Source of the DNA: a virus
DNA length: 64,000 nt
Strand: one strand, 5' to 3'
IMG/VR virus record: IMGVR_UViG_3300023179_000096
Coordinates: 1-64,000 of that record
The translations under genes and the position numbers were made by a program. Below the pieces are notes generated by a model. The model did not search any database and was not told the DNA's origin. It saw nothing but the letters and a program-made list of their open reading frames with translations. Positions 3,221 to 23,872 of this stretch are shown piece by piece. Every line of letters starts with the position of its first letter. Positions within the stretch are counted from its first letter, which is position 1.

Positions 3221-4132
3221 ATGAAGTTATATCTCTGCTCAGATGTTCATATTGAATTTGGGCCACTTGAAGTTCACAATAATGATAATGCTGATGTCCT
3301 GATTCTTTCAGGAGATATTGTTGTGGCATCTGCATTTAAAAATTGGGATAATTTTGGTATTAAGGGGGTTATTGAACCTTCTAAGCATGCTCAAAATTTC
3401 CTAAATTTCTTTCACCAGTGTTCTACAAAATTTAAAGACGTAATTTACGTCATGGGTAACCATGAGCATTACGATGGTGATTTTGCTACTTCAGCAAGTA
3501 TCCTGCGATCGGTTCTAAAAGAGTATACCAACATTCATCTTTTAGATAAAGAGTCAAAGACTATTGGTGATATTACTTTCGTAGGGGGAACTCTATGGAC
3601 TGATATGAATAAAGAGGATCCAAATACCCTTTATAGTATTTCTCGTATGATGAATGATTTTCGAATCGTATCTAACGGGAATCGTAATGTGTCCCATAAA
3701 GTTCCTATTTATAAGCGTGACGATAATGGTAATATTACCGACTACAACGACATAGAGCGCTGGGAGTTTAAAGAGTATACGGCTAGTTTCTCTCCCGAAG
3801 ATGCTGTTGAAGATCACAAAAAAATGCTACAATTCATTGATGAGGCAACAAAAGATCATACTAAGAAGTATGTTGTTGTGGGACATCATGCACCTAGTAA
3901 AGCATCTACTAAGCCAAGATATCAAAAAGATGTTTTAATGAACGGAGGTTATAGTTCTGAATTGTCAGAGTTCATTCTTGATCGTCCGCAGATTAAACTA
4001 TGGACACATGGACACACACATGATGTGTTTGATTATATGATTGGTTCAACTCGCATTGCCTGTAACCCTAGAGGGTACGTAAATTACGAAGGTCGAGCTG
4101 ATGAATTTAATTTTTTACTATTGGAGGTTTAA
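3221..4132 (+). CDS. calcineurin-like metallophosphoesterase
   Basis: A 303-residue enzyme with the full metallophosphoesterase motif set. SDVHIEF at 7-13 gives the DxH pair, SGDIV near 29 the second Asp, VMGNHEHYDG near 78 the GNHE/D motif, VVGHHAPS near 221 the third, and GHTHD near 265 the fourth. These ligands hold two divalent metals and hydrolyse phosphomono- or diesters. The substrate cannot be told from sequence; related phage proteins are often just called phosphoesterases. It has no signal peptide and so acts in the cytoplasm. It is tightly packed between its neighbours, with the DsbA gene directly after. Confidence 0.88.
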   Translation: MKLYLCSDVHIEFGPLEVHNNDNADVLILSGDIVVASAFKNWDNFGIKGVIEPSKHAQNFLNFFHQCSTKFKDVIYVMGNHEHYDGDFATSASILRSVLKEYTNIHLLDKESKTIGDITFVGGTLWTDMNKEDPNTLYSISRMMNDFRIVSNGNRNVSHKVPIYKRDDNGNITDYNDIERWEFKEYTASFSPEDAVEDHKKMLQFIDEATKDHTKKYVVVGHHAPSKASTKPRYQKDVLMNGGYSSELSEFILDRPQIKLWTHGHTHDVFDYMIGSTRIACNPRGYVNYEGRADEFNFLLLEV

Positions 4133-12252: not shown

Positions 12253-12280
12253 AAAAGGGGTTTAAAAACCCCTTTTTTTT
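12253..12280 (+). terminator. bidirectional rho-independent terminator
   Basis: AAAAGGGGTTT (12253-12263) pairs with AAACCCCTTTT (12266-12276), followed by a long T run. It separates gene 32 from the convergent minus-strand block; the reverse strand also has a T-tract after the stem, so it can serve both directions. Confidence 0.85.
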
Positions 12281-12470
12281 ATTTCTTTTTTTCTATCTTT
12301 TTAAGCTCGTGACAGTTATCCTTTTTAGGATCCTGACCGTCTTTACACGGCTTTTTTACCTCAGGTTTCTTTTGAGCTGTTACTGGAGGTTTTGATTCAT
12401 CTCTTTTAGCATCTGCTAATGCAACTGAAGCTGAAAAGACTAGGGTTAGAGCGATAAGTAAGGGTTTCAT
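12279..12470 (-). CDS. small exported lysine-rich protein
   Basis: A 63-residue protein with a clear signal peptide at 1-19 (MKP, hydrophobic LLIALTLVFSASV, then ALA before the cleavage site). The mature part is about 43 residues, very rich in Lys, Asp and Pro, with two cysteines near 42 and 53 that could form one disulfide in the periplasm. It is the last gene of the minus-strand structural block, with AAGGAG before its ATG. I do not recognise it. An exported phage protein may act in lysis control, superinfection exclusion or envelope interaction; nothing in the sequence decides between these. Confidence 0.6.
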   Translation of the reverse strand: MKPLLIALTLVFSASVALADAKRDESKPPVTAQKKPEVKKPCKDGQDPKKDNCHELKKIEKKK

Positions 12471-12479
12471 ATTTTCTCC

Positions 12480-14801
12480 TTAATAAGCGGCTATTCTATC
12501 ATTATAACGATCTAGTGAAGAGCCGGTCCTTTCTGGTCTAGGACTTGGTTTAATTGGAACAAACGATTGAGTATTTACATTATTTACACTACTGGACACA
12601 ATTGGAGTTGCAGCAGGCGGGGGTCTGCTAGCTGAACGAGTAAGATCGGCATTATCCGTAGATTCTTTTGCAACAACCGGTCCAGTTGATGGAGCTGCAG
12701 CTGGTGCAATAGAAGCTTGTTTTTGCTTGGCGTATTGAGCTTCTATTTCTGGTGAATACTTGTTGCCACTACCTTTAGATAATTCAATAGCAGCCATTTG
12801 ATTTTTTGAAAAAGGTTTGCCGGGTACAACCGGTTCATCCGCTATTGATATGCTTTCGGAAGATTTTTTTCTATTTAATTCTACTGGCCCAGTTTTAGGT
12901 AAAGCTGTTTCTGTCCCAGTTTTAGGGGTGACTGCTTTTTGAGACTCTGAAGAGCTTGGTGTTAGCTTTTCACCTTCACGTTTAGTTTCAATTTTACCAG
13001 CGCCAGCAGTTTCTATTTCCTTTTGAAATTTCTTAACTGCTTCTATTTTGGCTTTAGCTCCGGCCATTTCTCTAACTGTTTCTAATATTTGTGGGGGTGA
13101 TTTTTCTGTAAGTTTTCGATCTTCGAGTATTTTTTTATAAATTTCTTCAGTTTTTTGTTCTCTAAATTCTACAAACTTTTTATAATTTTCCGGGTCTTTT
13201 TTGGCAAATTCCATCTCACTAAATTGAATGTTAGTAGATTCTGTACCTGAAACCGCCTGTTTAGTTTTAGTACCTAGCTCTTCTTCCTTACCTAAGCCAA
13301 AAAAGCTTTTAACTGCATTTATACCCTCACCAACTTTTTCTCCTACTACTTTACCTGCTTTTGAACCTGCAAAAGCACCGAGCGCACCGCCAGCAATAGT
13401 ACCAATACCTGCCCCTACAACTGTACCTGCCGGGCCTCCAACAAAGGTACCAATAGTAGCACCTAATTTTGCACCGGCAAGTCCCCCAGCAACAGCGCCT
13501 GCTGCCATCCCAGAGCCTTCTCCAACCGCTCCTGATTTTTCAACCGTAGCAGTGTTTCCTATTTTTTTTCTTTCTGCAGATGCTTCTTCTGTAGATAACT
13601 CCCCTGAATCCACTTTCGCTTGTACTTCTTCTAACTTAGCTTGTTTGGAATCTTCTGCTGCAGAATAGCCTTTATAAGCTGTGTATGCTCCTATACCTAC
13701 AGCGGCTGCTGCACCTAACATTCTACCGGCGCCAGAGCCAGCAAATTTAGCCACTGTACCACCTAGAGATAATGCCCCTCGGCCTAACGACTTTGCACCA
13801 CCTAGTAAAGTTCTACCGGATTTTTTACCTAAATCACCTACATTCGATAAAATATCACCTAAACCTGATCCCTCTCCGCCTTCTGCTGCAGCTGATGCGG
13901 GCGAAGGTTTAAGCCTACCTTCCGGAAGATCGGAAGGAATTTTAGGCTCTAGAGCAGCACTTATTTTTTTTAATTCTGCGAGCTGCTGTTCTAATATGTT
14001 TTTATTTTCTTTGGTTAATTCGAGATCTTTTTCAGAAGAATCTGCTATGATTTCTTGAGAGGATTGAATATTATCAGCTTCCGGGTTTACACCTCTAACG
14101 CCTGGATCAGGTTCTTGCTTGTCTTTTTTTTCAACTTTATTAGTCATAAAGTCAAAAATACCTTTTACTCTTGAACCTATGGCTTTAGCTAAATCAATAG
14201 GTGTACCAAAACCGGTTATTTCTTCATCACCTTCTTTATTTTTTTCTTCTTTTTTAGGTTCAATACTCCCCGGAGTACCTTTTATAGCAGTTTTAGTACC
14301 AAGTTCTAAAGGCTTAAGTTTAATTTTATTAGTTTCTGACTCTCGCACTCTTTTACTTTGACCTGCTAATCTATTCCCTGCAGTTTCAAAATCAATGTAA
14401 CCACCTTCTTTAATAGTCTTACCAGAAACATCACTAGTTATTTCTCTACCGGAAGTATTTCTGTACTGAGCACTTTTTTTATCATATTCTAGACTACCTT
14501 CGGATATTTTACGAGCCAAAGTCTGTTCTTCTAAAGATTTTTTTAGTATTTGTGTTTGATTTTCTAAAGAAGATAAAACCGGTTTAAAATTTATACTAAC
14601 ACTTAGCCCTGTAATAGCATTTTCAATTTTTTCTAAACATTTAGCAATATCAGCAATTTGATCAGTTCGCTCTTCATTATTTTGCTGTACTGCTTCTTTT
14701 TCATCTTTAGAATGAAAAGCTTGGAATGCAAGACCTTCTTTATTTTGATCTAAAACTTTTTCTAGAAACTTTTGAAAAGCCTCGTCTTTGTTATTATACA
14801 T
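12480..14801 (-). CDS. large tail protein, tape-measure candidate
   Basis: A 773-residue protein. The N-terminal 130 residues are coiled-coil rich, followed by a long charged region. A glycine/alanine-rich hydrophobic part at about 340-510 contains two membrane-like segments (near 372-385 and 440-495), and the C-terminal 200 residues are Pro/Ser/Thr-rich. Such Gly/Ala hydrophobic segments inside a long helical protein are typical of tail tape measures, which set tail length and help DNA cross the membrane. Its gene directly follows the frameshifting chaperone-like gene, the standard order in tailed phages. It would be the counterpart of T4 gp29 although no direct sequence match is visible. 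Confidence 0.6.
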   Translation of the reverse strand: MYNNKDEAFQKFLEKVLDQNKEGLAFQAFHSKDEKEAVQQNNEERTDQIADIAKCLEKIENAITGLSVSINFKPVLSSLENQTQILKKSLEEQTLARKISEGSLEYDKKSAQYRNTSGREITSDVSGKTIKEGGYIDFETAGNRLAGQSKRVRESETNKIKLKPLELGTKTAIKGTPGSIEPKKEEKNKEGDEEITGFGTPIDLAKAIGSRVKGIFDFMTNKVEKKDKQEPDPGVRGVNPEADNIQSSQEIIADSSEKDLELTKENKNILEQQLAELKKISAALEPKIPSDLPEGRLKPSPASAAAEGGEGSGLGDILSNVGDLGKKSGRTLLGGAKSLGRGALSLGGTVAKFAGSGAGRMLGAAAAVGIGAYTAYKGYSAAEDSKQAKLEEVQAKVDSGELSTEEASAERKKIGNTATVEKSGAVGEGSGMAAGAVAGGLAGAKLGATIGTFVGGPAGTVVGAGIGTIAGGALGAFAGSKAGKVVGEKVGEGINAVKSFFGLGKEEELGTKTKQAVSGTESTNIQFSEMEFAKKDPENYKKFVEFREQKTEEIYKKILEDRKLTEKSPPQILETVREMAGAKAKIEAVKKFQKEIETAGAGKIETKREGEKLTPSSSESQKAVTPKTGTETALPKTGPVELNRKKSSESISIADEPVVPGKPFSKNQMAAIELSKGSGNKYSPEIEAQYAKQKQASIAPAAAPSTGPVVAKESTDNADLTRSASRPPPAATPIVSSSVNNVNTQSFVPIKPSPRPERTGSSLDRYNDRIAAY

Positions 14802-14804
14802 TGC

Positions 14805-15005
14805 TTACATATTCCTGGCGTTTTGTTGTAACATTCTTAACTTTTCATTTTCTTTTTTAATATGGTCTATTAATAAACCTACATAGATGTCCCTTTCCCA
14901 AGGCATCATTTCTTCGAGCTCTGTTAAACTATAATTATGATGTTGCATTAGAGAAAAATTTAAAGTATAGTGGTTAACGAGACTGTCTTGAGAAAGGGTT
15001 ATACG
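14805..15005 (-). CDS. frameshift-encoded extension of the gp26-like chaperone
   Basis: After a -1 slip at 15011-15005 the ribosome enters a 66-residue frame starting RITLSQDSLVNHYTLNFSLM and continuing through the block YSLTELEEMMPWERDIY. This pattern is typical of the second (T) part of tail assembly chaperones, where a conserved PWERDxYV block is followed by a basic helix. The fused product would be 296 residues. An internal ATG at 14948 could also give a 47-residue protein. The stop lies three bases before the tape-measure start, matching the G-GT-H arrangement of lambda and its analogues. Confidence 0.72.
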   Translation of the reverse strand, partial: RITLSQDSLVNHYTLNFSLMQHHNYSLTELEEMMPWERDIYVGLLIDHIKKENEKLRMLQQNARNM

Positions 15006-15694
15006 AAAAAATTACTAAGACCCTCGAGTTTAGAAATATTATGTCGCTTACACTTCGGGCAGTCGCTTTCTATTTCTTGAACTATTTTAGGTGCAGTAAC
15101 AAAGAAATTTTCTATTTTATCAAATTGTTCTTTAGTTAGAGAATAAACAAACTCTTCTAGCTCTTCTTTGGTTTGTTCTTTCGCATCCCAGTAATTTTCA
15201 TTATCAAACACACCCTTAATACAATTAATAATTAACTCTACTACTTTAGATGTATTATTAGATGCAAACACTCCTACCACATCTTCAAATACAGGGTAGT
15301 TCATTTCTACACCGTACATATCAGTTAGCATAATCTTATTAGAATGTGTAGAATCTCTAACTACTTTAAGATTATCTATAGTAAAATTAGCATCTATTTT
15401 ATTACCACATTCGCAGTTAACAATAACATCTACAGTTTCACTAATTGATTTTGCTCTAAGTTGTAAAAAAATATATTCAATATCAAAATGAGGGAGTGCT
15501 TGGACGTTAAGTTTATTAAATGTACATACATCTACTAATTCTGCAACTATTCTTGCTACTTCGGTATTATCTGCTTCTGCCATAGTTAAGAGAACTTTAT
15601 GCTCTTTTACTAAAAAAGGACGATATTTTATCTTTTTTCCAGTTGATGGTAAAATCAACTCAAATGTGGGTGTATTTAACTTTGGTAATGACAT
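14999..15694 (-). CDS. 26: gp26-like baseplate hub / tail assembly chaperone
   Basis: A 231-residue protein of the T4_baseplate (gp26/gp51-like) family. Signatures are FELILPSTGKKIKYRPFLVKEHKVLLTMAE at the start, a CNKLNVQALPHFDIEYIFLQLRAKS middle, zinc-ribbon-like pairs CECG (near 126) and CPKC (near 217), and the ending LEGLSNFF. In T4 these proteins assist hub assembly. Here the last codons hold the slippery T TTT TTC, and a tail chaperone-like extension follows in the -1 frame just before the tape-measure candidate. This suggests that the protein works as a G-type tail assembly chaperone. The two CxxC pairs may bind zinc. Confidence 0.78.
   Translation of the reverse strand: MSLPKLNTPTFELILPSTGKKIKYRPFLVKEHKVLLTMAEADNTEVARIVAELVDVCTFNKLNVQALPHFDIEYIFLQLRAKSISETVDVIVNCECGNKIDANFTIDNLKVVRDSTHSNKIMLTDMYGVEMNYPVFEDVVGVFASNNTSKVVELIINCIKGVFDNENYWDAKEQTKEELEEFVYSLTKEQFDKIENFFVTAPKIVQEIESDCPKCKRHNISKLEGLSNFFV
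15005..15011 (-). promoter_or_regulatory. -1 programmed frameshift site T TTT TTC
   Basis: Read on the minus strand the codons are AAT TTT TTC GTA TAA, so the canonical heptamer T TTT TTC sits two codons before the stop. An internal Shine-Dalgarno-like GAGGG lies nine bases upstream (15025-15021), the distance that stimulates -1 slippage in dnaX. The -1 frame continues for 66 codons with a conserved-looking protein. Confidence 0.72.
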
Positions 15695-15709: not shown

Positions 15710-16399
15710 TTAAGCCGATGGAGGCAAATCTGACCCAGGCGCATCATCAAGAGTGCCGGTTTGCCAATTCCATTGTTTTTTAACTTGTGGTAGATCAACA
15801 TCATAAGATGGTACTTGAGGGTTAATTATTACCCTAGGTATATCTACCGCTGTTGTTTCTCGATTGTTGTTTACCCAATATCTATAGGCAAATAATACAT
15901 TCAGCCTATGAGTTTGATTAGATGAGCTGTTATTCAAATCCATTAAATTAAGATTTCTAGGGAAAGCTTCTATTAATTTAACTTCATTGGTAATATTGTC
16001 TTGCTCATCTAATTGGCGTATTAAAATATCAGTAATATAATTTTCTTGATAATTTACCGTAAATGTGTCTGGATCTATAATTAAATGCATCCAGTCTTCA
16101 AAAAATCTTCTAATTCTCATATTCTGATCAACGTGAAAAGTAATAGGTATACCTTCACCCCCATATTCAGAAGAAATTGGTCTTTGATAAGTTGGACCGA
16201 ATATTTTAAATTGTTTTGAAAAAATATTTAATAACGGTATACTAGCTTGTTCAACATATAAACTTGCAAGTTCTGCATCACTAAAGCTACTAGCTAGCCC
16301 TAGAGGGGGCGTGATAATTACTTCAAATCTATTATTTCTTGCTAACCCTGCTCCACTAAGAACTTGGGATCTAAAACGATCTAAGCTAAAATTAGCCAT
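15710..16399 (-). CDS. 54: tail-tube-like baseplate protein (gp54 candidate)
   Basis: A 229-residue protein with the tail tube (gp19-like) fold signature. It opens SLDRFRSQVL...LARNNRFEVIITPP, like MTTFNVERFKSAL...ARPNQFAVQL of the gp19 in this window. It continues with EQASIPLLNIFSKQFKIFGPTYQRPISSEYGGEGIPITFHVDQNMRIRRFFEDWM and EAFPRNLNLMDL. In T4, gp48 and gp54 are tube-like proteins that cap the baseplate and start the tube. Position beside gp26-like and gp48-like genes favours gp54. Start overlaps the stop of the gene before it by one base. Confidence 0.68.
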   Translation of the reverse strand: MANFSLDRFRSQVLSGAGLARNNRFEVIITPPLGLASSFSDAELASLYVEQASIPLLNIFSKQFKIFGPTYQRPISSEYGGEGIPITFHVDQNMRIRRFFEDWMHLIIDPDTFTVNYQENYITDILIRQLDEQDNITNEVKLIEAFPRNLNLMDLNNSSSNQTHRLNVLFAYRYWVNNNRETTAVDIPRVIINPQVPSYDVDLPQVKKQWNWQTGTLDDAPGSDLPPSA

Positions 16400-16974
16400 T
16401 AATATTTCTCTCTAGTATCTTGCCAAACTTTTTGTTTTGAAGCACCTTCAAAACGCTCTACTGGTAACAAAGAAGCCACTACCCAATCAGGATATTTTAT
16501 ATTTAAAAATCTGGACTGAACATGATCATCTAAGTAATGTTTAACACACCCTTTAACGGGTGCGATTCTTGATAGATTTACAAGTAATTTCCAATTAATT
16601 CTTAATCTGGTTTCCTCATTTAACTTATCATCTGATGCATATTGATGCAAAGCCCCTAGAAGTTTAAATCTTAAAGGATACGGCAAATAATGGAGATTAA
16701 TCCCATAAAACCCACCAGGTACTTTTCTAAAAGGAAGTACTAGTGGAAACTTATCCCAGTATGGGAGTTTATCTTTTAACTTAGCATCGTAAAAAAACAT
16801 ATACATCTTACCAGGAATTAAACGTGTAGTAAGATCAGGCACATTTTGCATTAATTTATTTGGGTTAGTTGCAGCAGACGCCAAAGCTTTTACCTGCACT
16901 TGGTACCAATTAAGAGATTTATCTGTATCTCCCGCTTTATTTCTAATATTTAAAAAAGGATTGGATGTAGCCAT
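16399..16974 (-). CDS. conserved structural-block protein of unknown function
   Basis: A 191-residue protein. PGKMYMFFYDAKLKDKLPYWDKFPLVLPF, GFYGINLHYLPYPLRFKLLGAL and the C-terminal DDHVQSRFLNIKYPDWVVASLLPVERF...KVWQDTR are blocks that I recall as conserved in T4-like marine and jumbo phages, without a proven role. In T4 the gene next to 4 is 2 (DNA end protector), but I see no basis for calling this gp2. It has no membrane segment. A late promoter box lies exactly five bases before its ATG and no ribosome binding site is present, so its mRNA may be leaderless. Confidence 0.62.
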   Translation of the reverse strand: MATSNPFLNIRNKAGDTDKSLNWYQVQVKALASAATNPNKLMQNVPDLTTRLIPGKMYMFFYDAKLKDKLPYWDKFPLVLPFRKVPGGFYGINLHYLPYPLRFKLLGALHQYASDDKLNEETRLRINWKLLVNLSRIAPVKGCVKHYLDDHVQSRFLNIKYPDWVVASLLPVERFEGASKQKVWQDTREKY

Positions 16975-16979
16975 TTAAA

Positions 16980-16987
16980 TATTTATT
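16980..16987 (-). promoter_or_regulatory. late promoter box AATAAATA with start at the ATG
   Basis: On the minus strand the box runs from 16987 to 16980, then TTTAA, then the ATG at 16974. T4 spacing places the first transcribed base on the A of the ATG. No Shine-Dalgarno sequence is seen. Confidence 0.5.
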
Positions 16988-17435
16988 ATGATGAAATTCC
17001 TAGATCATTTTCCGTAAGAATTAAAAATTTCATACCTTTCCTCTCACAAAATTCATTCGCAGCTTTCCATTTAGCTTGATTAGTACCATACAAGAAAACC
17101 TCTTCAATAAACTTTTTTGTTTGTTTTTTAGGTATAGAAGGGGGTTTAGTAAATCGATCCGGTTTAATTTCAACTAAATACTTTGTAAGATAACCTTTTT
17201 TATCCTTAATCTTTACATAAAAGTCAACAAAATACCTATGAATTTTAGAATCTACAGGAGATTTATAGGGAATAATAACTGTTTCTGACCCCCATTCTAA
17301 AACCGAGTGGTTGGTATCGCACCACTTCATAAATTTAAGTTCCCAGGAAGAACGATAAACAACCTCATTAAGATCACCTCTATACTTAGATGGGTTGATT
17401 ACTCTATAACGCCCTTTAAAAACACCTTTGTACAT
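16986..17435 (-). CDS. 4: head completion protein gp4
   Basis: A 149-residue homologue of T4 gp4 (gp50/65, 150 residues), a nuclease-fold protein added when the DNA-filled head is closed. FKGRYRVINPSKYRGDLNEVVYRSSWELKFMKWCDTNHSVLEWGSE matches the T4 start closely. Then IIPYKSPVDSKIHRYFVDFYVK and YLVEIKP supply the PD-(D/E)XK-like residues (E near 42, D near 76, ExK near 94). A C-terminal KWKAANEFCERKGMKFLILTE follows. The first gene of the minus-strand block, with a minus-strand late box at 17472-17465. Confidence 0.9.
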   Translation of the reverse strand: MYKGVFKGRYRVINPSKYRGDLNEVVYRSSWELKFMKWCDTNHSVLEWGSETVIIPYKSPVDSKIHRYFVDFYVKIKDKKGYLTKYLVEIKPDRFTKPPSIPKKQTKKFIEEVFLYGTNQAKWKAANEFCERKGMKFLILTENDLGISS

Positions 17436-19115: not shown

Positions 19116-20463
19116 AGATTCAGTGCAAAAAGCAGGCTCAGTAAAACTAACTGAGTTAAAGCTTATTTCTAATAATAACTCAATTTGGGATCTAACAGAA
19201 TTTTTGGTAGAACTTAATATCTATGAAGATATGTTTTCTAATTATCTTTACGGTAGTATGGTTTTGTCAGATAGCAGAAACCTAATAGAAAATGTACCGC
19301 TTATAGGTGAAGAGTATTTAGTAGTAAAGGTTAACACCCCTACTTTTGATTCTAGAATTTCTAAGACATTTAGAGTGTTTAAAATAAGTGATAGAAATAT
19401 AGTAAGAGATAATAACACTCAGGTGTTTACTCTTCACTTTGCTTCTATAGAATTATTTTATGATATTCTTTTACCACTATTTGTACCTTTTCAAGGCAAT
19501 ATTACCGATGTAGCGGGTGAGATATTTTCTAATTATATTGCAACTAGCCGTGAATTTCAAATTAGTGAATCTACAGATGAAATTAAAGAACTAGAAACCG
19601 AAACACCTCTTGTTGTTCTTAACGATACCTCTAATAAAGTTAAATTTGTGGCACCCGGGTGGACCCCGTTTAAATGTTTAAACTGGCTAGCATCTAAAGC
19701 AATTCCAAAGGATGGTAAAGCTAAAAACTTTCTATTTTTTGAATCTAATAAAGCTTTTTATTTTGGTTCTATTGAGCGCATTTTTAAAGAAGCAGTTCAA
19801 AATGAATTAGTAATCGGTAAATATTCTATTTCTGCCTCAAATATACGTGATGGAGAAAATATCCCCGATATTAATAGAGAATATTTCATTGCTAAAGATG
19901 TGGAAATGGTTGAAACAACCGATCACATTAAAAACTATACCAACGGCTATCTTGCAAACCGGCTTATAACTTTAGATGTGTACAATAAAGAATATAAAAT
20001 TACAGATTATGATTATGTTAATGAGTATAAGAATCAATTTCATACCTCAGGATCTGGGCCAACTTCGATACCCCCTTTTTCTTCAGATAGCTTAAGAAAT
20101 TTTGCTACCAGTATTAGTTTTTATCCAATTAACCCTAAATTGCACGATTCGTTTGAAAACAATATTAACGAAAAAATGCCTGAAATCTATGGTAATAGAA
20201 AATCAAGTCTGTTAGATTTAACCAATATAAAAATGCATATTACAGTACCGGGTCGAACAGATATAGAAGTAGGCAGAGTTTTGTATTTCTCTTATCCTGC
20301 TTTAGGCCCTAAAAATGATACTAATGAAGAGGGTAAAGAAGATAAGAGCTATTCTGGTTATTATTTAATAACAGCAATTCACCATAAAATTAATAAAATA
20401 GATCATTCAATGAGAATGGAAATTATTAAAGATTCTCTTTATACAGACCCTGAGGCCAAATAA
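19108..20463 (+). CDS. 27: baseplate hub protein gp27-like
   Basis: A 451-residue protein of the gp27/gpD-type hub family, the ring that carries the spike and joins tube and baseplate. Residues 13-130 (LTELKLISNNNSIWDLTEFLVELNIYEDMFSNYLYGSMVLSDSRNLIE, then FRVFKISDR and FTLHFAS) form the first tube-like domain. WTPFKCLNWLASKAIP near 190 and DVEMVETTDHIKNYTNGYLANRL mark the second. IEVGRVLYFSYP and GYYLITAIHHKINKIDHSMRMEI mark the last. Length is near that of T4 gp27 (391) plus loops. It directly precedes the spike genes. Confidence 0.82.
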   Translation: MAEDSVQKAGSVKLTELKLISNNNSIWDLTEFLVELNIYEDMFSNYLYGSMVLSDSRNLIENVPLIGEEYLVVKVNTPTFDSRISKTFRVFKISDRNIVRDNNTQVFTLHFASIELFYDILLPLFVPFQGNITDVAGEIFSNYIATSREFQISESTDEIKELETETPLVVLNDTSNKVKFVAPGWTPFKCLNWLASKAIPKDGKAKNFLFFESNKAFYFGSIERIFKEAVQNELVIGKYSISASNIRDGENIPDINREYFIAKDVEMVETTDHIKNYTNGYLANRLITLDVYNKEYKITDYDYVNEYKNQFHTSGSGPTSIPPFSSDSLRNFATSISFYPINPKLHDSFENNINEKMPEIYGNRKSSLLDLTNIKMHITVPGRTDIEVGRVLYFSYPALGPKNDTNEEGKEDKSYSGYYLITAIHHKINKIDHSMRMEIIKDSLYTDPEAK

Positions 20464-21563
20464 TGCAAAGAATTTTTAACAAAGACGGGTTCAATTGGTG
20501 GATAGGTGTTGTAGAAAACAGACATGATCCAGAAAAATTAGGTCGCTGCAAAGTAAGAATATTTGGCTATCATACTGATAGCAAAGAGCTTTTACCTACA
20601 AAAGACCTCCCCTGGTGTATACCAATACAACCAATTACATCGGCTGCTACTTCAGGGCTTGGGTCTTCTCCTCTAGGTCCAGTCGAAGGTACCTGGGTTA
20701 TAGGGTTCTTTCTTGATGGGGAGGATGCCCAGCAACCGGCGATGTTTGGAACTATTTCTACAAAAGCAGCTAAACAAGCTTTTGCGGCTGAAAGTGCTGT
20801 AAGTAAGCCGAGAGAAGAAACAAATAATCCTAATGACGGAACCTTAAAAGACGGTCAGGGGAAGATAGTAACCGACTCTCAAGGGGAGCCAGTTAGAGCA
20901 GGTACACCAAAAATAGAAGGTTGGGAGTTAGGAAAAACTTCAGAAAAATATGAGTCTGGGGGCAAAGGACCTGGTGTAATAAATGATTATAACGGCGCCG
21001 CGGAAGGCGACTTAGGGGGTGCTTCTTACGGTACCTACCAGCTAGCTTCCTTTTTACCTGAAATGAGAAAAAACGGTAAAGCTAGACCCTCCTCTAAAAA
21101 TTCACCAGTTGAACAATTTATAAAAAATAGTAAATTTAAAGATAAATTCGACGGGCTTACCCCTGCTACTCCAGCTTTTGATAACAAGTGGAAAGAAGTT
21201 GCATCACAAAATTCAAAAGATTTTAAAGATGATCAACACGATTACATACAACGTAAATATTACAATGTAATGATAGCTAACCTACAGCGTGCTGGTTTAG
21301 ATTTAACCAAATATGGACCGGGAGTGCAAGATCTAGTCTGGTCGACTGCAGTACAGTTCGGTCCAGCTCGTGTTTCAATATTTACTGATCCTTTAAAAAA
21401 TAAGAGCGAGTTGTCGGAAAAAGATATTATTAATTTAGTTAGTGATTATAAAATTGCAAAGGTAGAAGATCTGTTTAAATCCAGTTCACCGGATATAAGA
21501 GCAGGTGTTAAAAAACGTTATGAAACAGAAAAAAAAGATTTACTCGGGTTGGTTAAGTCATGA
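20463..21563 (+). CDS. 5: spike base: gp5 OB-fold plus lysozyme-like domain
   Basis: A 366-residue protein. Residues 1-105 are a gp5/VgrG OB-fold that sits on the hub (WWIGVVENRHDPEKLGRCKVRIFGYHTD, DLPWCIPIQPITSA, GPVEGTWVIGFFLDGEDAQQPAMFGT). After a linker the C-terminal 200 residues carry YESGGKGPG (candidate catalytic Glu164) and GGASYGTYQL near 184, a pattern that I associate with lysozyme-like domains in VgrG-related proteins. It replaces the T4 lysozyme domain of gp5. There is no beta-helix here; that part is encoded by the next gene. Assignment of the enzymatic domain is by motif only. Confidence 0.78.
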   Translation: MQRIFNKDGFNWWIGVVENRHDPEKLGRCKVRIFGYHTDSKELLPTKDLPWCIPIQPITSAATSGLGSSPLGPVEGTWVIGFFLDGEDAQQPAMFGTISTKAAKQAFAAESAVSKPREETNNPNDGTLKDGQGKIVTDSQGEPVRAGTPKIEGWELGKTSEKYESGGKGPGVINDYNGAAEGDLGGASYGTYQLASFLPEMRKNGKARPSSKNSPVEQFIKNSKFKDKFDGLTPATPAFDNKWKEVASQNSKDFKDDQHDYIQRKYYNVMIANLQRAGLDLTKYGPGVQDLVWSTAVQFGPARVSIFTDPLKNKSELSEKDIINLVSDYKIAKVEDLFKSSSPDIRAGVKKRYETEKKDLLGLVKS

Positions 21564-23872
21564 TTGATATTCTTTCCGCTCAAATTAAAGGTGTTATTGA
21601 AAATTCTGTTTTTAATCAAGTAAACGGTCTAGGTTTAGGTGTTTCTAATCCTATTCTTAGAGCTATATCTTCGAGAGCTGCAGAAGAACTATCTGTTATA
21701 GTTGCTCAATCAGTAAATTTAGGTACCAATAGACAGATTAATACTATACCTCAAAATCTTATTGGACCTAAAAACCCGGTAAATCTTACCACGGGTAATT
21801 TAGGTAGTACAGGTGTAGCAGGTAACCTTGGTAACCTTCTTAATACTCAATTAAATTTACAGCTGACCGATAAATTAGTTACTATAATAGAAAGAGAATT
21901 AAAACTTTCTCTTCCCGCGGATAAACGAGGTATAATTAATTTTTCCGCCGTAGCAGCTACTTTAACCCAAGTACTAACCCCTACAGTAAGCAGCTCTATA
22001 GATACTGTTTTAAATGGTGTAACTGGGGCTATTTTTAGCAGAAATCAATCTACACCATTAACCCTGCCTAACGCTTCTAGTCTGTTTAGTTCTTTTTTGG
22101 GTGGGAGATCAGGATTATCTTTTAATCAATTACAAGGTCAAATTACTAGACAATATTCTCAGTCCACAGCTACAAAGTATCTTGGTCAGGCAAAAACTTT
22201 TAATATAAACAATTCTCTTAACCAAGAAAAATTAGTTTCTTTAAAACAAGGTTTTATCGATCCTGAAGCTAATTACCCTACAAAAGAATACGCAGGGTTA
22301 TCTGAGACAAATAAACTAGCTCAAGGGGATGTCAAAGGTACTATAGTTCAATCAAAGAATTTAAATCGAATGATTGGAGCTAAACTTCCGGGAGGAGAAT
22401 CCTGGGAGCAACCTGAATCTCCTTACAAAGGGGAATACCCTTACAATAAGGTCACACAAACAGAAGGTGGCCATATTTTAGAAATGGACGATACACCAGG
22501 TGCAGAAAGAATTCATTTATATCATAAATCTGGAACTTTCGTAGAAATAGATGTAAACGGCTCAGTTGTGATGCGTACTAAGGGTTCAAAATATGAAATA
22601 ATTGATCGCAACGGTAAGATAGCTATAACTGGAAGTGCCGATATCTCTGTAAATGGTGCTTGTAATATTTTTGTAGGCAATGATGCAAATATAGAAGTTG
22701 AGGGCGATACCAATATAATTTGTCATAACGATATTACCGCTCAAGCCGGTGGAACATTTAACTTGTCAGCTGTTGAAGAATTTAATATTTCTTCAGGTAA
22801 TGTAAATATAGAAGCTTATAATGCTATGAATGTAAAGTCTAACGTTGCACTTATAGTAAGTACAACAAAAGATTTGTCGTTTCGTTCAAACACTAATGCA
22901 TATTTGCAAGCTACAACATTATTTCAAAATACTACCAACAGCTATCATCAAACTATAGCAAGTATATATGAAAAACTCGGTGGTTCGAAATTTACTCAAA
23001 CTGTAGGCGCAGTTAACTATCAAATAGGTGAAAATTTTAATGCTGACACCGGAGGAGAAATATATCTCAACTCTGGTAACGCTGTTGACTCTAAGGACAG
23101 TAAATCTGCTAATGTTGCTGGACCATCAAATATAGGTATTATTTCTGGCAGAAGAGATGTTACTGATAATTCTATTGATGATCCTGTAACTTTAACACTT
23201 GCTGACCCATATGCTTTAAAATTAGAAGAAGAGCCCGCTGCATCTGGGGAATATTCTGCTCATAAGGATCTGATACTTACATCAGGGTTTGCTACTGCAG
23301 AAGAATTTGATACTGAACCAATATCTATTGAAACATTTAATGAATCTAGCACACAAAGTGAATTAATAACTCCATCAGAAGATATTAAGAAATTTACTGA
23401 TCTCCCGGGTAATTTTAATTTATCACCTAATTTTACAGTAGAGATGCTTTCCTCTAAAGCTGCGCTTACAAAGAATTTTATTGAAGAAGATCCTCAAGGT
23501 CTTAAATTTGGTGAGATAATTTACAATCTTGCTTCTGTTTCTTTAAATATTTTAGAACCAGCATATAACATTTATCCTAAACTATTCGTAGCATCCGGAT
23601 ATAGATCAATCACGGCAAGCTCAAAGAATTCTTCCCATCCTTTAGGTAAATGTGTTGATATACAGTTTCAGGGTGCAACGAAAGATGACTATTATATCTT
23701 TGCTAAAGAACTAGTTAAAGTTTTAAATTATGATCAGTTGATTCTCCATTATTGTAACTATACTAACAACCCATGGATTCATATTTCCTTTGATGGTTCT
23801 AATAATAGAAAAGAAGTATTAACGTTTTGGAATAATAAGAAATTTTCTAGCGGATTGGCAAAGTTAGTGTAA
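21560..23872 (+). CDS. spike needle: gp5C-like beta-helix with M15 peptidase domain
   Basis: A 770-residue protein. Residues about 285-500 contain the VgrG/gp5C pattern. GGHILEMDDTPGAERIHLYHKSGTFVEID is followed by many short beta repeats (ISVNGACNIFVGNDANIEVEGDTN and on), which form a triple-stranded membrane-piercing helix. The C-terminal 150 residues look like a D-Ala-D-Ala carboxypeptidase (M15/VanY-like): SGYRSITASSKNSSHPLGKCVDIQ and WIHISF supply the zinc ligands (His near 693, Asp near 700, His near 741). A spike that carries its own peptidase would help cut the cell wall on injection. The gene overlaps gp5 by four bases. Confidence 0.78.
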   Translation: MIDILSAQIKGVIENSVFNQVNGLGLGVSNPILRAISSRAAEELSVIVAQSVNLGTNRQINTIPQNLIGPKNPVNLTTGNLGSTGVAGNLGNLLNTQLNLQLTDKLVTIIERELKLSLPADKRGIINFSAVAATLTQVLTPTVSSSIDTVLNGVTGAIFSRNQSTPLTLPNASSLFSSFLGGRSGLSFNQLQGQITRQYSQSTATKYLGQAKTFNINNSLNQEKLVSLKQGFIDPEANYPTKEYAGLSETNKLAQGDVKGTIVQSKNLNRMIGAKLPGGESWEQPESPYKGEYPYNKVTQTEGGHILEMDDTPGAERIHLYHKSGTFVEIDVNGSVVMRTKGSKYEIIDRNGKIAITGSADISVNGACNIFVGNDANIEVEGDTNIICHNDITAQAGGTFNLSAVEEFNISSGNVNIEAYNAMNVKSNVALIVSTTKDLSFRSNTNAYLQATTLFQNTTNSYHQTIASIYEKLGGSKFTQTVGAVNYQIGENFNADTGGEIYLNSGNAVDSKDSKSANVAGPSNIGIISGRRDVTDNSIDDPVTLTLADPYALKLEEEPAASGEYSAHKDLILTSGFATAEEFDTEPISIETFNESSTQSELITPSEDIKKFTDLPGNFNLSPNFTVEMLSSKAALTKNFIEEDPQGLKFGEIIYNLASVSLNILEPAYNIYPKLFVASGYRSITASSKNSSHPLGKCVDIQFQGATKDDYYIFAKELVKVLNYDQLILHYCNYTNNPWIHISFDGSNNRKEVLTFWNNKKFSSGLAKLV

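Follow-up and report, generated by a model that had tools for sequence, protein, structure and literature searches.

A conserved -1 frameshift site that very probably gives a T4-type tail assembly chaperone its long form

The locus described here raises the question of whether a single gp26-like gene supplies two products, one ending at its own stop codon and the other extended through the -1 frame. It lies on the minus strand of the window, by which we mean the whole 64,000-nucleotide stretch that was analysed, itself part of a 69,934-base IMG/VR virus record. Along that strand, a tail-tube-like gene (15710-16399; phrog_45 tail tube, E 1.5e-35) is followed by the gp26-like ORF (14999-15694; 231 aa), an extension in the -1 frame (14805-15011) and a tape-measure candidate of 773 aa (12480-14801). 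The short ORF thus has a tail-tube-type gene on its 5' side and the tape-measure candidate directly after its extension. Relatives have, at the tail-tube-like position, a gene annotated as tail tube or as baseplate tail tube initiator (gp54). Genes for a DNA end protector (gp2-like; phrog_429, E 3e-54) and a head closure protein (gp4-like; phrog_218, E 2e-59) occupy 16399-17435 of the same strand. Elsewhere in the window, the gene for the hub lysozyme (gp5) is seemingly split into two overlapping plus-strand ORFs (20463-21563 and 21560-23872), the first matching the N-terminal part of phrog_430 and the second matching the needle part of that family, with an endolysin-like C-terminus.

The slip site and its conservation

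The gp26-like ORF ends, on the minus strand, with CTC GAG GGT CTT AGT AAT TTT TTC GTA TAA. This contains the slippery heptamer T_TTT_TTC (15011-15005) in the gp26-like frame, one codon (GTA) ahead of the TAA, and nine bases separate it from an SD-like GAGGG (15025-15021), which we propose as a frameshift stimulator. The -1 frame product reads FF RITLSQDSLVNHYTLNFSLMQHHNYSLTELEEMMPWERDIYVGLLIDHIKKENEKLRMLQQNARNM, that is, FF plus 66 codons, with its stop at 14807-14805; three bases lie between this stop and the ATG (14801) of the 773-codon ORF. The predicted fusion has a length of 230 + 66 = 296 aa. The heptamer, the GAGGG nine bases upstream, the 66-codon -1 frame and the three-base gap had all been pointed out in an earlier note on this DNA, and all are present in the sequence. 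A -1 stop codon sits immediately 5' of the heptamer, so that a shift is possible only between that point and the gp26 TAA, a stretch of about 10 nt.

Against the background of the window, it is the arrangement rather than the bare heptamer that stands out. TTTTTTC occurs 53 times versus 36 expected, and GAGG-N10-TTTTTTC occurs once in the 64 kb versus 0.04 expected. Within window ORFs of 150 codons or more, T_TTT_TTC is found in frame only three times in 18,182 codons; the other two copies lie more than 1,200 nt from their stops, and the copy in the chaperone gene is the only one near a stop. Folding of the 50-70 nt after the heptamer gave nothing beyond shuffled sequences in the window or in two relatives (L003 and L004), and was weakly better than shuffles in another (L012; z -1.4). 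The lack of a stable RNA structure 3' of the heptamer leaves the SD-like element on its 5' side as the sole stimulator observed.

The same site was read at the ORF end in eighty IMG/VR sequences related to the gp26-like protein at 38-75% identity. The 75 distinct ends counted comprise the window, S-PM2 and environmental IMG/VR relatives; one relative with a stop codon before the site (L014), one that runs off its contig (L038) and Pelagibacter phage Mosig were set aside. The heptamer is present and in phase in every distinct end, as TTTTTTC in 74 and as TTTTTTT in one, and its distance to the stop is the same in 74 of the 75. An SD-like element precedes it by 9-10 nt in all of them. The A-site Phe codon is TTC in 74/75, against 23% of the Phe codons elsewhere in these genes, and the base before TTT TTC is invariably T, against 57% T in comparable third positions. 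These distinct ends are related and the counts are not independent events; the comparison of codon columns within the gene serves as the control for kinship. In a codon alignment of 74 of these sequences, 231 columns were scored and the two Phe codons of the heptamer alone showed no synonymous variation, although synonymous sites elsewhere are near saturation, with dS above 1 for pairs that include the window. In Mosig (L002, around 4000-4035), the heptamer is present and the 0 frame continues for several codons before stopping; the site is thus not tied to an adjacent stop codon.

The -1 extension and how it is expressed

The extension is a coding sequence under purifying selection. Its median dN/dS in the -1 frame is 0.14 over 76 pairs, compared with 0.21 for gp26 itself, and third-position differences are dominant. 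It matches phrog_634, the 'baseplate hub assembly catalyst', with E 2.5e-26, and also the C-terminal end of phrog_150, the family to which the gp26-like ORF belongs by profile (E 3e-64). Cyanophages carry the same pair, annotated as gp26 and gp51 or without gp51. In four cyanophage records (L084, L085, L086 and L101), the extension is unannotated and appears as a gap between gp26 and the next gene.

We judge it highly likely that the gene is a tail assembly chaperone gene expressed in two forms via a -1 frameshift, and that the conserved site is very probably a functional programmed frameshift signal making the long form of a T4-type chaperone. Most ribosomes would stop at the TAA and release a gp26-like short form of 231 aa (TAC-N). 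A minority would slip by -1 on T_TTT_TTC, stimulated by the upstream SD-like GAGGG, and produce the 296-aa long form (TAC-NC) carrying a gp51-type C-terminal domain (TAC-C). If lambda G/GT is a guide, the tape measure encoded just downstream would be coated by many copies of the short form and few of the long one, with the extension bringing in tube subunits. What was computed is the site, its conservation, the coding selection on the extension and the homology to T4 gp26 and gp51; from these we infer slippage, the ratio of the forms, their binding partners and chaperone action. The two-form reading draws on conservation of the site, its phase and its spacing, on the frozen Phe codons and the coding extension, and, as discussed below, on the gp51 fusion, the fold match, the gene position and the literature. 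Weighing against it are the missing downstream RNA stimulator, a modest fold match, the failure to detect a sequence relation to lambda G or T, the heptamer-less Ackermannviridae and Vibrio phage K356, and the kinship of the sampled relatives.

The strongest of the competing explanations, which we nonetheless regard as improbable, is that the extension is a separate small protein, the 'gp51' of cyanophage annotation, made from a start codon of its own or by ribosomes that re-initiate beyond the gp26 stop. The annotations of S-PM2, Mosig and others treat it this way, 50 of 76 loci have an ATG 5 nt past the gp26 stop, and in several distant phages an ATG overlaps the stop. Set against this, none of the 76 loci examined has an SD-like element before the first -1 frame start codon, the Met is not conserved whereas the heptamer is, and conservation also covers those residues of the extension that come after the heptamer and before any ATG. 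A separate protein would also leave unexplained the freeze of the TTT TTC codons and the SD-like element ahead of them. For the window itself, standalone expression of the extension was considered and rejected, as there is no start with an SD and the first -1 ATG lies 53 nt past the gp26 stop, within the conserved domain.

Less probable still is that the fusion arises at transcription, through polymerase slippage on the T run, and not by ribosomal frameshifting. A run of six T, or seven in phages Cr30, phiM19 and pf16, could in principle slip; however, the near-universal TTC in the A site limits the run to six T, though TTT is the commoner Phe codon (77%), and an exact phase together with a fixed distance to an SD-like element is used by ribosomal and not by polymerase slippage. 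Finally, a poly-T run might close an AT-rich gene by chance, with an unrelated ORF behind it. The abundance of TTTTTTC in the window could suggest as much, but we give this reading a negligible probability and consider it already refuted by the conservation of the heptamer among sequences with near-saturated synonymous sites and by an extension that is both under purifying selection and homologous to the gp51 C-terminus.

Relation to T4, HK97 and lambda proteins

Under the proposed frameshift, the window phage would make from one gene what T4 makes from two. The gp26-like ORF scores 201 bits for PF12322 against a curated cut-off of 24.5, and both T4 gp26 and T4 gp51 match this family over the whole profile; T4 gp51 additionally has a match to phrog_634 and covers phrog_150 up to its C-terminal end. 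When the window gp26 family was aligned by profile with T4-type gp51, the result was 97.4% (E 1e-11), and hhalign of the extension with residues 200-251 of T4-type gp51 gave 96.6% (E 5e-10). BLASTP of T4 gp51 against the window gp26 returned nothing significant, the relation being visible only with profiles. AF2 models of gp26 and gp51 (mean pLDDT 86 each) have their elements in an almost identical order, with further C-terminal helices in the gp51 model that correspond to the extension. In a tree that is unrooted and has bootstrap values not fully settled, the gp26 proteins of the T4 group make up one supported cluster and its gp51 proteins another, both separate from all single-gene forms. 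Because of these profile alignments, models and tree, T4 gp51 is best described as a gp26 paralogue with the extension attached, the two parts being naturally fused in frame.

The comparison with T4 is close in its products and different in its decoding. T4 gp26 ends where the short form of the window ends, and the C-terminus of gp51 carries the extension, whereas T4 genes 26 and 51 are separate, divergently transcribed and involve no frameshift. T4 obtains the short and long forms from two genes; the window phage would frameshift instead. PMC3004832 lists T4 gp26 and gp51 as chaperones of hub assembly and describes gp51 as essential for assembly yet absent from the particle. The earlier suggestion that these T4 proteins descend from, or act as, tail assembly chaperones is supported by our analysis, with the amendment that gp51 is not just the extension but a whole gp26 paralogue that bears it.

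Structural comparison points, modestly, to the family that gene order and decoding predict. In a VIA-align search with the AF2 model of gp26, the HK97 tail assembly chaperone 2OB9 ranks first with Z 6.9, which is below Z 8, and the next row has Z 4.5. The match covers 84 of 104 residues with an rmsd of 4.1 and 10% identity and involves model residues 1-88; this part may share the 2OB9 fold, and the second part of the window protein (about residues 90-226) falls outside the match. A Foldseek search of the PDB with the gp26 model found nothing significant, the VIA-align results for the T4-type gp51 model listed no tail chaperone, and profile sequence searches of the PDB with gp26 and gp51 returned no relative.

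With lambda, the likeness is one of gene order and decoding: a short ORF, a -1 extension and then the tape measure, as in G/GT-H. Our earlier reading of this layout, built on a gp26/gp51-type protein, gains support from the conservation of the site, the profile matches, the T4 gene comparison and the modest HK97 structural match. The comparison it proposed, of the extension with T4 gp51 and lambda T, gave a match to the T4 gp51 C-terminus and none to lambda T: hhalign of the window proteins with lambda G or T gave a probability of 0.1% each (single lambda sequences as targets). The lambda slippery sequence differs from that of the window, and the lambda T domain is longer than the extension. 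The window chaperone genes would, by analogy, work like G/GT, but we do not file them in the lambda G/T families.

The tape-measure assignment of the 773-aa ORF is tentative and leans mainly on position and composition. The position three bases after the extension agrees with the earlier proposal that this protein is the tape measure, but its profile matches are weak and cover a glycine-rich segment (phrog_794, E 1e-4; phrog_167, E 0.007). Candidates in relatives have similarly weak matches, and three relatives have ORFs of 825-893 aa at this position. Directly 3' of the candidate lies an ORF of 63 aa (12279-12470, minus strand) with a signal-peptide-like hydrophobic N-terminus (MKPLLIALTLVFSASVALA).

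Distant lineages and the place of the finding

Beyond the close relatives, TTTTTTC is also found in VH7D, Mendera, Aeromonas phage 65, S-H34, SRB7757 and IC12, and variants of the heptamer occur in other distant T4-like phages, as TTTTTTT in Cr30, phiM19 and pf16, TTTTTTG in AF3 and TTTTTTA in XG4. The ATG that overlaps the gp26 stop in several distant heptamer-bearing phages, as read from sequences and translations, means that re-initiation could add free extension there. The kind of relative that the earlier note had named as telling against its reading, lacking a slippery site and keeping the downstream frame with a start codon of its own, occurs in part and in distant lineages only: Ackermannviridae (PhaxI, KZag1, Ag3 and Limestone; L099, L100, L116 and L117) and Vibrio phage K356 (L098) retain the -1 extension without an X_XXY_YYZ heptamer, the site reading ATT TTC or CTT TTC. 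PhaxI, whose junction reads GAG ATT TTC ATT TAA, and KZag1 have no stop-overlapping ATG, and with neither heptamer nor overlapping ATG they would need a non-canonical slip or another mechanism. We tentatively suggest, as a possibility we rate below even, that several lineages have replaced or modified the frameshift, by duplication and fusion in the T4 group and by a degenerate site in Ackermannviridae and K356 that acts through a single-tRNA slip or stop-start re-initiation. The replacement in the T4 group is already published; the degenerate-site variant may not be.

The abstract of a 2022 study by Vladimirov and colleagues reportedly names genes 26 and 51 and describes frameshifting as conserved in several T4-like groups. 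The papers that cite this study (Vladimirov, Gautam & Davidson, 2022, Virology 566:9-15) credit it with identifying the T4-like tail chaperone genes: in PMC12846349 it is the source given for poly-T -1 frameshift signals in T4-like TAC-N genes, and in PMC10274946 for T4-like phages that pair a short gene with a longer, fused one. The same layout is seen at the window locus, and we found no difference in kind from the chaperones as these citing papers describe them. The idea of a frameshifted T4-like chaperone is thus right but, judging from these accounts, was already published in 2022. According to a 2016 review (PMC5009743), G-T frameshifting is conserved widely among long-tailed phages, with T4 as the exception.

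In public records, these proteins are still called baseplate hub or baseplate hub assembly catalyst, and gp51 is started at an internal Met or omitted, so the practical gain would be that many genomes of cyanophages and pelagiphages could be annotated better. The window locus adds strong comparative evidence that T4-like phages share the two-form tail chaperone logic of lambda-type phages, and that the T4 'hub assembly' proteins gp26 and gp51 are, on this comparative evidence, the short and long chaperone forms.
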